Source of the DNA: Planotetraspora silvatica
Lineage (GTDB): Bacteria; Actinomycetota; Actinomycetes; Streptosporangiales; Streptosporangiaceae
Assembly: GCF_016863315.1 (NCBI RefSeq)
Contig: NZ_BOOQ01000002.1
Location: 1-64,000 of the forward strand
Reading direction: 5' to 3'
DNA length: 64,000 nt
Both the position numbers and the translations under genes were made by a program. The notes beneath the pieces are model-generated. The model did not search any database. It was not told the DNA's origin and saw only the letters and a list, made by a program, of their open reading frames with translations. Shown piece by piece: positions 26,184-63,304 of this stretch (its first letter is position 1; each line of letters opens with the position of its first letter).

Positions 26184-26435
26184 TGTTCTCCATGGCGGAA
26201 CGCTCAGATCGGACGTTTCGCCGCCAGTCGATCAGGGCCCGGTCCACGGCTGGTTCACCGGAAATGAACCGGCCCGATCCGGTCGAACATACTTTCCGAT
26301 CTTTCGGGGATGCCGTCGTGATTGGAGCGCCCGATCGGGGACACAGGGACAGAGCTGTCCGTTAATGTCTTCGCCTGACCGGATGGCGACGGCCGCGTGG
26401 CGCCCGACCACGTGGCGAAGCAGGAGGAGGTGCCG

Positions 26436-27035
26436 ATGTTCGCGGCGCTGACCGGGCTCGGCCTGTCGACCGCGGCGGGGCTCAACGCCTACATCCCGCT
26501 CATGGTCGTCGGCCTGCTCGCCAACCTCACCGACGCCGTACGGCTGCCGCAGGGCTACGAATGGCTATCCAACGGCTGGGTCCTGGCGGTCATCGGGGTG
26601 CTGCTGGTCGCCGAGTTCGTGCTCGACAAGGTCCCCGTAGTCGACCACGTCAACGACATCATCCAGACGGCCGTACGGCCGGCCTCCGGGGGCGTGGTCT
26701 TCAGCGCCACCGCGGCCGCGGCCAGGCTGGACGAATCGACGTGGATGGCCGAGCATCCGGCGGTCGGCTGGGTCCTCGGCATCGCGGTCGCCCTGGCCGT
26801 CCATCTGGTCAAGTCGGGCGCCCGCCCCGTCGTCAACGCGACCACGGCGGGTTTCGGCGCGCCCGTCGTCAGCACGGTCGAGGACGCGAGTTCGCTGGGC
26901 ATGAGCCTCATCGCGATCTTCCTGCCGGTGCTCGTCATCGTGGCGATGGTTGTTCTGGCGTTCGTCGCCTGGCTGCTCCTGCGCCGGGTCCGCCGCTATC
27001 GGGAGGCCCGCCGAGCCCGCCCCGCCGGACCGTGA
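26436..27035 (+). CDS. DUF4126 family membrane protein
   Basis: 199 residues with hydrophobic segments at FAALTGLGLSTAAGLNAYIPLMVVGLL, WVLAVIGVLLVAEFVLDKV, VGWVLGIAVALAVHLV and a C-terminal LIAIFLPVLVIVAMVVLAFVAWLLL followed by Arg-rich residues. The GLNAYIPL and DKVPVVDHVNDIIQTAVRPASGG segments are typical of DUF4126, whose function is not established. ATG 26436 has AGGAGGAGG upstream. Its TGA stop (27033-27035) lies inside the first box of a large intergenic repeat array. Confidence 0.85.
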   Translation: MFAALTGLGLSTAAGLNAYIPLMVVGLLANLTDAVRLPQGYEWLSNGWVLAVIGVLLVAEFVLDKVPVVDHVNDIIQTAVRPASGGVVFSATAAAARLDESTWMAEHPAVGWVLGIAVALAVHLVKSGARPVVNATTAGFGAPVVSTVEDASSLGMSLIAIFLPVLVIVAMVVLAFVAWLLLRRVRRYREARRARPAGP

Positions 27036-27406
27036 TCATGCACAGGTTCGGCGTCAGGGCCCCTGACCCGGCGCGATCGTATCCGTGATCATGCACAGAT
27101 TCGGTGATCAGGCCCACGAGCAGGGCCCACATCTTCCGTGATCATGCACAGGTTCGGTGTCAGGGCGCTTGGCCTGGCGCGATGGCATTCGTGATCATGC
27201 GTACGACTTTCCCGAAGCCCGATTGCCGGCCGCTACTGCATGATCACGAATGGGATCCGCACTGCTCACCTGCGCTTTCCCGAACCTGCGCATGATCACA
27301 AACATCGTTTCGGCAGGTCAGCAGCCATCGCGGTGAACCTGTGCATGATCACGGCGGGAGTTGGCGCAGGCGAGGGGGGCGATCGCCGAACTTGTGCATG
27401 ATCACG
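27031..27406. repeat. Oriented 53-bp-period repeat array A between convergent genes
   Basis: Eight copies of a 21-bp box (C + GTGATCATGCACAGGTTCGG). Rightward copies start at 27031, 27084, 27137 and 27190 (degenerate), exactly 53 bp apart. Leftward copies end at 27248 (short), 27300, 27353 and 27406, 52-53 bp apart. The 32-bp segments between boxes are not random: at a fixed offset they carry a weaker TGACCTG-like box, for example TGACCCG, TGGCCTG and TGACCTG. The array fills the gap between DUF4126 (plus) and the ArsR gene (minus), and its two outermost boxes contain both genes' TGA stop codons. 53 bp is close to five helical turns. No cas gene or transposase is near. Confidence 0.92.
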
Positions 27407-27773
27407 CCAAGGGGGGCGAGGGGGTCAAACCGTTGCCGGGGGCGTCGACCTCTTGCGGTACGGAGCCGAGGACGGCGGCCAGCAGGCCGGGGAAACGCTC
27501 GTCCAGGTCCTCCCGGCGCAGGCTGACGTACCGCTGCCGGCCATGGGGGACGTTGCGGACCACCCCCGCCTCCCGCAGCGTCTTCAAGTGGTGGGAGAGC
27601 GTGGACTTGGGGATCTCCGCGCCGGCCGGCTGGCAGGCCGCCACCTCGATCGGGCCCTCGACGAGGGATCGCGCGATCGCCAGCCGCGACGGATCGCTCA
27701 GGGCGAACAGCACGTCGGTCAGGGCCAGGTCCGCCGTGTCCGGGTGCGCCAGGTCCCGTGAGGTTCCACTCAT
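27402..27773 (-). CDS. ArsR/SmtB-family transcriptional regulator
   Basis: A 123-residue winged helix. DVLFALSDPSRLAIARSLVEG is the usual ArsR entry helix, EIPKSTLSHHLKTLREAGVVRNV the recognition helix and GRQRYVSLRREDLDERFPGLL the wing and dimer helix. The metal-binding ELCVCDL motif is absent and a single Cys (VAACQPAG) is present, so it probably does not sense metal. ATG 27773 begins at the conserved length; no clear ribosome site, possibly a leaderless or short-leader mRNA. Divergent from an MFS exporter gene with two matching operator-like palindromes between them. Its stop codon lies within repeat array A. Confidence 0.9.
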   Translation of the reverse strand: MSGTSRDLAHPDTADLALTDVLFALSDPSRLAIARSLVEGPIEVAACQPAGAEIPKSTLSHHLKTLREAGVVRNVPHGRQRYVSLRREDLDERFPGLLAAVLGSVPQEVDAPGNGLTPSPPLA

Positions 27774-37403: not shown

Positions 37404-38477
37404 CTAGTACGCGATGACGCTTTTAGCCTGGCTTGGCGTGATTTTGCCTCGGAGTTTCTTCGGGACCGAGATATGCGCGGGATCGCCGTCCGACGTGTAG
37501 CGCTCCCCCGGCCGCTTGTCCAGCCAATCAAGCCAGTACTGCGTGCAGTAAATGGGGCAGCCCGACTTCTTCTCGTTCGACTGCACCCGCGGGATCGCGT
37601 ACCGGTCGAAGGCTTTCGCGTAGGGCGAAACCGACGGCCGTGCCGAAGCTAGGAAAACTCCATCAAAATGATATTTTGTCCCGTCCCAGGACCCTTCGTG
37701 GGCGACACTCCCCTTCTTCGGAGGCGAGCCGTACGGCAGGGCGAACGTCGTGGACGACGGGACGCCGATCTCCTTGAGCAGCCGCTCCTGCTTGACGATC
37801 TGCTCCGACACCTTCTTGGCCTTCATCCGGTGCAGGTCGGGGTGGGTGTAGGTGTGGTTGGCGACCTCGAACCCGTGGCCGAGGAGCCATTTCACCGCCC
37901 GCTCCTCCTGCGACCTGTCCCTGATCCCGAACGGGTTCCGGTTGACCCAGAAGGTCGCCACGGGCCGGAACTCCGGATGCTTCGCGGCGACCTCGTAGAG
38001 GATCTCGACCACCGTGTTCTTCTTGGGGTTCCCGTGCGCGTCGAGGGCGAAGTGGCTGGGGTTCCCGTCGTCGAAGGTCAGTACGACGGGGTGCGTCCCG
38101 GCCGGGACGTTGAACTTCCCCGACACGAACTCGGCGGCCGTGATCGGCACGTACTTCTCCCTGACCAGCCGCTCCAGCTCGGCGCGCAGCTGCTTCGGGG
38201 TCCGGTCGATGGAGGCGCGCCGCTTGGCCAGCAGCCGGTGGTACATGATCACCGGGATCATGCCCGCCTCGTTGGCCTTCACCTTCCGGGCGGCCTCGGC
38301 GGGGGTCGGCCGACCGGCCGGATGGCTCACGGAGGGCGTGGGAACAGGCGTGATCCTGGTCCTGGCCGCCGGCCGTCCGGCGTCGGATGAGGGCAGCAGT
38401 GTCACGACGACCAGGCCGACGACGACCACGGCCGCGTTGGCGAGGACACCGGCCCGGGCAAGACTCCGCACAGTCAT
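37404..38477 (-). CDS. Secreted or membrane-anchored polysaccharide deacetylase
   Basis: 357 residues. An N-terminal signal-anchor (ARAGVLANAAVVVVGLVVVTLLPSS) is followed by a Pro/Thr-rich linker and a NodB-type deacetylase domain. Motif 1 (VVLTFDDGNPSH) supplies the catalytic Asp and metal Asp, and motif 2 (NHTYTHPDL) supplies the two metal-binding His. TFALPYGSPP is motif 3. Two Cys (GCPIYCTQYW) near the C-terminus may form a disulfide outside the cell. Probable substrates are cell-wall or surface N-acetylated glycans. Divergent from the DUF2127 gene. Confidence 0.87.
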   Translation of the reverse strand: MTVRSLARAGVLANAAVVVVGLVVVTLLPSSDAGRPAARTRITPVPTPSVSHPAGRPTPAEAARKVKANEAGMIPVIMYHRLLAKRRASIDRTPKQLRAELERLVREKYVPITAAEFVSGKFNVPAGTHPVVLTFDDGNPSHFALDAHGNPKKNTVVEILYEVAAKHPEFRPVATFWVNRNPFGIRDRSQEERAVKWLLGHGFEVANHTYTHPDLHRMKAKKVSEQIVKQERLLKEIGVPSSTTFALPYGSPPKKGSVAHEGSWDGTKYHFDGVFLASARPSVSPYAKAFDRYAIPRVQSNEKKSGCPIYCTQYWLDWLDKRPGERYTSDGDPAHISVPKKLRGKITPSQAKSVIAY

Positions 38478-62897: not shown

Positions 62898-63304
62898 GGT
62901 GATCATGCACAGGTTCGGTGAACGGCCCATTGACATGCACAAACCCCAGCCGTGATCATGCACGAGTTCGGCAAAATGGCCCTGACCTGCGGATTCCGCT
63001 TCCGTGATCATGCACGGATTCGGGAAAGCGCCCCACCACCAGGGCGAATTCAACGCGTGATCATGCAACGAGCCCGCCATTGCATGATCACGGCCGATAT
63101 CGGCCCAGGTCGACGACCCGATCGCCGAACGTGTGCATGATCACGCCCGCGGTTTGACCAGGTCACGCGGCAAGATCCCGAATCCGTGCATGATCACGGA
63201 CCGGGTTCGCCCACGTCCACGGCACACTCGCCGAACTCGTGCATGATCACGAACCCGGGAACCTTAGGTCACCAGACCTTTCCCCGAACCTGTGCATGAT
63301 CACG
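62898..63304. repeat. Oriented 53-bp-period repeat array B between convergent genes
   Basis: Nine copies of the same 21-bp box as array A. Four rightward copies start at 62898, 62951, 63003 and 63056 (steps 53, 52, 53). Five leftward copies end at 63092, 63145, 63198, 63251 and 63304 (all 53). Counting inwards, first and ninth copies share variant CAGG, second and eighth CGAG, third and seventh CGGA after TGCA. The two central copies form a 12-bp hairpin (CGTGATCATGCA, 13-nt loop). The inter-box segments again hold a TGACCTG-like box at the same offset. It fills the gap between a lipoprotein gene (plus) and a subtilase gene (minus). Confidence 0.93.

Follow-up and report, generated by a model that had tools for sequence, protein, structure and literature searches.

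Inward-facing arrays of a 53-bp-phased box between genes of Planotetraspora as predicted sites of a DNA-binding protein

The array between a DUF4126 gene and an ArsR-type gene

The window, meaning the whole 64,000-nucleotide stretch of Planotetraspora silvatica DNA that was analyzed, carries a DUF4126 gene on the plus strand (ending at 27035) and an ArsR-type HTH gene on the minus strand (ending at 27402) that converge on 8 copies of a short box, and the outermost box on each side contains the TGA stop codon of the adjoining gene. The features are listed below.

26397..27035, plus strand: DUF4126 gene, convergent on the array
27031..27052, plus strand: box 1 of the left half-array, with TTCG tail; contains the left gene's TGA stop at 27033-27035
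27084..27105, plus strand: box 2, TTCG tail present
27137..27158, plus strand: box 3, TTCG tail present
27190..27202, plus strand: box 4, terminal (innermost) box of the left half, without TTCG tail, 2 mismatches
27203..27235, no strand: centre between the half-arrays; z 0.3 between the 11-mer cores, no strong hairpin
27236..27248, minus strand: box 5, terminal box of the right half, without TTCG tail, 1 mismatch
27279..27300, minus strand: box 6, TTCG tail present
27332..27353, minus strand: box 7, tail reads TTCA
27385..27406, minus strand: box 8, with TTCG tail; contains the right gene's TGA stop at 27404-27402
27402..27773, minus strand: ArsR-type HTH gene, convergent on the array
62899..63303, no strand: second array of the same kind, between a plus-strand gene and a subtilase gene on the minus strand

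The first-pass annotation had described 8 inward-pointing boxes between convergent genes at a period of 53 bp with one step of 52, and a word search of the window bears out the positions, the period, the orientation, and the flanking genes. The plus-strand boxes start at 27032, 27085, 27138, and 27191 (0, 0, 0, and 2 mismatches to GTGATCATGCAC) in steps of 53, 53, and 53 bp, and the minus-strand boxes lie at 27236-27247, 27288-27299, 27341-27352, and 27394-27405 (1, 1, 0, and 0 mismatches) in steps of 52, 53, and 53 bp; the first-pass coordinates had counted in the conserved base preceding each box. Its box length of 21 bp holds for the full word (cGTGATCATGCACaggTTCGg, about 21 bp); the 2 innermost boxes (27191 and 27236) lack the TTCG tail, and the box at 27341 has TTCA instead.

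A ninth, weak match at 27104 (plus strand, 2 mismatches) lies within a spacer. At up to 2 mismatches, the window holds 26 matches; 100 shuffles gave 3.68 on average and never more than 10. Thirteen same-strand pairs lie 52-54 bp apart, compared with 0 in 30 first-order Markov simulations. The second array has plus-strand boxes at 62899, 62952, 63004, and 63057 and minus-strand boxes at 63080, 63133, 63186, 63239, and 63292. A degenerate box pair in opposition was also seen at 38241-38265, with GTGATCATGTAC on the minus and GGGATCATGCCC on the plus strand.

A genome-wide family and its place among genes

We identified 698 exact boxes in the 8.66-Mb source genome (G000), 360 on one strand and 338 on the other, and none with the reversed word as control. 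Among the matches listed, at least 20 array sites lie on contig C2 up to 620 kb, about 1 per 31 kb, from which we infer a genome total of the order of 280 arrays; the spacing of 20 arrays on this one contig (CV 0.63, P 0.018) is suggestive only of an even distribution. A consensus built from 64 exact boxes in the first 464 kb of C2 gives the unit as cGTGATCATGCAC-aggTTCGg-N12-yGACCTGc-N, with the next box at 53 bp, and a half-array ends in a terminal box without the TTCG tail.

With spacing left unfiltered, 62 of the 70 same-strand neighbors 15-130 bp apart on C2 were at 53 bp and 3 at 52, and at other loci, which partly overlap this set, 586 of 677 were at 53, 35 at 52, and 7 at 54. The spacing is therefore far from random genome-wide, and so is the orientation (below). 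The strict step supports the first-pass view that the boxes are set near whole helical turns, and several direct repeats at a protected step are also what characterizes phased protein-binding arrays of the centromere or iteron kind. The first-pass view that this is no simple tandem repeat is likewise supported. Spacers of different arrays are 52% alike in the source genome, so the arrays are not recent copies of one another. One array of near-identical 53-bp units was seen in G085 (L208, 296-570), apparently a fresh tandem duplication that shows how arrays may grow.

Defining an array as at least 2 same-strand boxes 51-55 bp apart, we collected 171 arrays from at least six genomes, dropping exact duplicates and retaining orthologues, and read their context from gene calls made by a purpose-written script rather than a standard gene finder. 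Seventy-six arrays were two-sided, every one of them pointing inward, and 95 were one-sided. Outward switches do exist in other families (L305 and L306). The flanking genes were convergent in 66 cases, tandem in 82, and divergent in 23, against a baseline on C2 of 65 convergent, 265 tandem, and 65 divergent gene pairs (n = 395), so the convergent setting claimed from the first locus survives as a tendency. The median distance from an array to an adjoining stop codon is 18 bp (214 cases, including 30 in which the stop falls inside a box at the same place), and to an adjoining start codon 86.5 bp (128 cases). Tandem arrays were closer to the 3' end of the upstream gene in 58 of 82 cases. Arrays thus favor gene ends, as a preference rather than a rule. 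The same holds for the proposal that boxes keep one orientation relative to each gene's 3' end: of the one-sided arrays in tandem settings, 31 were sense and 18 antisense (P 0.085), which leaves a tendency and no rule. Half-arrays bracketing a gene at 0.3-6 kb followed no rule either (+- 13, -+ 9, ++ 7, -- 6).

Conservation within the genus and spread beyond it

Orthologous arrays of 3 Planotetraspora genomes (G004, G003, and G002, in this order) were aligned to those of the source genome. Identity was 0.972, 0.973, and 0.950 in the 11-bp box, 0.859, 0.703, and 0.859 in spacer stretch 19-31, 0.870, 0.739, and 0.835 in spacer stretch 40-52, 0.920, 0.823, and 0.870 in flanking intergenic DNA, and 0.970, 0.910, and 0.927 in genes. 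Most spacer letters therefore change at least as fast as the flanking intergenic DNA against a close relative. Across 8 arrays with equal unit counts in G000 and G004, we counted 4 indels to 181 substitutions in units and 6 to 19 in array centres, compared with 27 to 91 for the intergenic flanks and 6 to 301 for genes. The length of a unit is thus protected to about the same degree as a reading frame, even though its letters change. The contrast is weak between G000 and G003 (22 to 124 in units versus 47 to 161 in flanks), where 3 equal-count arrays were available and the alignment is doubtful.

The number of units varies between orthologous arrays. All six G002 orthologues compared were shorter or reduced, 2 of them (244008 and 381906) to a single inverted pair that retains the outermost boxes, and one locus has right-pointing boxes only in G000 and left-pointing boxes only in G003. 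An array follows thiI at the orthologous site in G000, G003, G004, and G001. The centre of this array (G000 C2 244008-244638) holds a strong palindrome, GTACGGCATG...CATGCCGTAC, kept in all 4 genomes, and its surroundings vary among them. Half-arrays flank an FdhD-family gene on both sides in P. mira, G001, and G085, members of 2 GTDB genera. At the 3' end of the DUF4126 gene, the box was absent in 13 other genomes with a match, including G001 and G002, and G115 has a single box palindrome there; the 3' end of thiI in G143, G209, and G238 carries GC-rich hairpins without the box.

In G001 the box itself has changed, with 165 exact copies versus 1194 at one mismatch. The unit box there reads GTGATCATGCAGAAGTTCG, with G at position 11 in 80 and A at position 13 in 82 of the 109 boxes read, and the innermost boxes mostly retain GTGATCATGCAC. 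In the array after thiI, 4 of the 5 tailed unit boxes have the new form and one has a near variant; the new form thus stands inside an orthologous array, which means that an old site took on the new word. Such a concerted change is what either protein co-evolution or an active homogenizing process would leave.

Among 60 relatives, exact boxes numbered 165, 231, 652, and 623 in the 4 genomes of the same genus and 0-6 in the others. Direct-repeat pairs of TGATCWTGC were found in 53 of 297 family genomes (reversed control: 1 in each of two genomes, otherwise 0). Rich in them are Planotetraspora, G085 (555), which GTDB places in another genus, G109 (249), G209 (128), and G077 (126), followed by G060 (56), G238 (46), G143 (40), and G216 (22). 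The word varies by clade: genus g55 has TGATCTTGCA with TCGCA at a step of 53 bp, G077 arrays have a step of 41 bp, and the core reads TGATCTTGC in g55, g86, and g72. Inverted pairs were identified in 42 of the 297 genomes (control 1 in two) and form long palindromes in G028, G114, G115, and others. These single palindromes of other genera mostly lie 5-30 bp downstream of stop codons, and the 26 with gene context were tandem in 18, convergent in 8, and divergent in 0 cases. Some single matches are one old inherited site of a genus, found in five g6 genomes; in all 5 that were read (L272-L276), a single box palindrome lies between the same two genes.

A class-wide search matched 31 of 394 genomes. 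Outside the family, the core occurs with other tails and looser spacing in G329 (65), G388 (43), G327 (23), G447 (5), and G535 (3). Loci of this kind were seen in other actinomycete families at L300-L303 (G329), L304-L308 (G388), L309-L311 (G327), and L312-L314 (G447), and G327 also has an unbroken run of 18 boxes in 22-bp steps. The f6 matches read are one recurring site that is probably coding.

Protein sites, RNA elements, or a mobile repeat

The arrays might act as RNA, as bidirectional terminators whose halves pair or whose centre forms a hairpin, and folding gives this reading some of what it needs. Centres shorter than 30 bp fold strongly (z below -2 in 41 of 43) because the terminal boxes pair, and the whole array at 27031-27406 folds at z -9.0 against shuffles, as any inverted array must; centres of greater length reach z below -2 in just 6 of 33. 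Strong local hairpins were found at 10 of 15 array loci, as against 13 of the 39 convergent gaps that have no array and 2 of the 60 windows drawn at random; the comparison with the gaps is biased toward the longer array loci. The lean of tandem arrays toward upstream 3' ends would also suit a terminator, as would the palindromes of other genera, which sit just past stop codons and never between divergent genes; among 33 distinct 39-nt palindromes (of 45) in G114, 3 of 8 arm pairs covary at P<0.01. Against the RNA reading, 95 of the 171 arrays are one-sided and show no hairpin past the terminal box (mean z -0.08), and 339 distinct non-redundant units show no clear base-pair covariation. In these units, the tail and GACCTG form a candidate stem, but its two sides pair neither more nor less often than expected of independent columns; column pair 40-51 scores 0.082 against a maximum of 0.080 in 20 shuffles, and with its neighbor 41-50 in fourth rank this hints at most at a very small stem in the unit. 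When spacers are compared across the two halves of a single array, they are 55.9% alike in G000, against 52.1% for spacers of different arrays; the corresponding figures in G001 are 52.2% and 54.2%. The spacers are thus not generally kept complementary. A strict step of direct repeats serves no hairpin role, and the 23 divergent arrays and the 18 antisense arrays among the 49 one-sided tandem ones argue against a pure 3'-end terminator. An intrinsic terminator has a conserved hairpin in every functional copy, which the arrays do not show and the single palindromes of other genera partly do, and the one Rfam match (27.5 bits, gathering score 197) was taken as chance. We consider a terminator acting as RNA improbable, and the sense RNA elements in 3' ends offered by the first-pass annotation are disfavored by the units' want of clear covariation; given the z of -9.0 for the array and the bodies of one-sided arrays, which fold at a mean z of -1.76 (30 of 95 below -2), an RNA role may exist beside protein sites.

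The chief alternative is a repeat that spread as a mobile element, either MITE-like or of a new REP-like kind, and seeded palindromes at gene ends, which grew into arrays in some lineages; the boxes would then be recognition ends, and today they may have no function or one gained later. It would account for the hundreds of copies, for the single palindromes elsewhere with a common core and clade-specific tails, and for patchiness in genus g86, where G143, G209, G216, and G238 carry the array pairs counted above and the other genomes searched 0-3. Several results speak against it. RAYT (PF01797) is missing from 11 of the 17 box-bearing genomes tested (G000, G002, G003, G004, G085, G077, G209, G238, G028, G115, and G074) and present in the other six (G001, G109, G060, G143, G216, and G114), and 7 of the 9 genomes that have no multi-copy arrays carry it; a REP/RAYT family, defined by this Y1 transposase gene, was rejected on that ground. 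In the part of each genome that was read, 1061 proteins near sampled arrays were grouped, and the 25 largest groups, judged by eye on their first 90 residues, included no recurrent transposase. None of the six G002 orthologues was a fully empty site, as the two that are down to one pair keep both outermost boxes, and no target duplication was found at 27032. Searches of phage, plasmid, and viral collections gave no match, and array spacers diverge while box and unit length are conserved. We therefore regard a mobile origin as unlikely, though the most serious competitor, and it is compatible with protein sites if an old mobile repeat was co-opted. A CRISPR array does not fit, since opposed strands are used and the spacers share TTCG and GACCTG positions.

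The arrays might instead be sites of a known regulator; the only named lead, ArgR, is in our judgment very improbable. In Streptomyces coelicolor, a fragment near SCO5864 is positive for ArgR in a band-shift assay, and the ARG box assigned to it contains CGTGATCATGCAC, listed in Table 1 at 11.8 bits among band-shift-bound fragments (PMC5839063). That box was placed by a model inside a longer fragment (PMC5839063), the arrays lack the left half of the ARG palindrome, the core becomes TGATCTTGC in g55, g86, and g72, and the lead comes from a single sequence match in a single paper.

No description of such arrays was found among the literature matches listed, and known systems resemble them in part. 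REP/BIME elements with RAYT likewise form hundreds of short intergenic repeats, often as inverted pairs near 3' ends, whereas the arrays here are long direct repeats with selected spacing, mostly in genomes lacking RAYT. The DNA uptake sequences of Neisseriaceae likewise repeat a short word hundreds of times, in dialects that differ by clade and sometimes as inverted pairs that serve as terminators, but boxes here are clustered in phased arrays. MIRU of mycobacteria are likewise actinobacterial intergenic repeats, some about 53 bp, that overlap stop codons, but their copies are near-identical tandem units, whereas spacers here are unrelated and strands are used in opposition. Plasmid centromeres such as sopC of the F plasmid and parS of pSM19035 are also rows of protein sites at a fixed step; they occur once per plasmid, whereas here hundreds of intergenic arrays face inward and no ParB is known for the box. 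The sopC step is given as 43 bp (PMC9499535).

From the sequence comparisons, we lean toward reading the arrays as helically phased sites of a putative sequence-specific DNA-binding protein that coats gene boundaries, a combined claim we hold at somewhat better than even. Its first part, phased protein sites, is probable; a boundary role between transcription units is a tentative addition. Sites for a DNA-binding protein were among the 3 roles proposed at first, and as predicted sites they are supported. The box and the unit length are kept while spacer letters drift, all two-sided arrays point inward, the arrays recur genome-wide at conserved loci, including the thiI and FdhD-family sites, and arrays of other genera step at 53 or 41 bp, each near a whole number of turns, a helical-phase argument that draws on these two period classes only. 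The variable unit number speaks against it, as does the folding of the array and of one-sided bodies as RNA; the divergent and antisense arrays do so as far as a pure 3'-end terminator is meant, and the weak G000-G003 indel contrast, from a doubtful alignment, counts neither way. Each array would be a row of asymmetric sites, in which the protein would read the core GTGATCATGCA, then TTCG about one turn on and GACCTG about three turns on. As 53 bp is about five turns, the subunits would sit on one face of the DNA, touch, and cooperate in a rigid stretch, with 2 rows facing one another over a short intergenic centre. The bound stretch would act as a boundary that stops or separates polymerases, and possibly also as a chromosome-organizing site.

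It is conceivable, though on the doubtful side, that this is a boundary system undescribed in the literature searched: a two-part protein reading the old core GTGATCATGCA together with a tail that changes fast and differs by clade, polymerizing in 53- or 41-bp steps, fencing hundreds of loci, and changing together with its tail. If tail and protein change together, most genomic copies would shift in concert, as the unit boxes of G001 have done, and the arrays offer a clear case of a dispersed, putative binding word changing in concert between species. If the protein reading is right, these genomes would hold hundreds of natural constructs that separate the sequence, spacing, and orientation of a binding site, with spacer letters free and length fixed, and would give a handle on how phased protein filaments in actinomycetes, where U-tract terminators are said to be scarce, mark gene ends or organize the chromosome.
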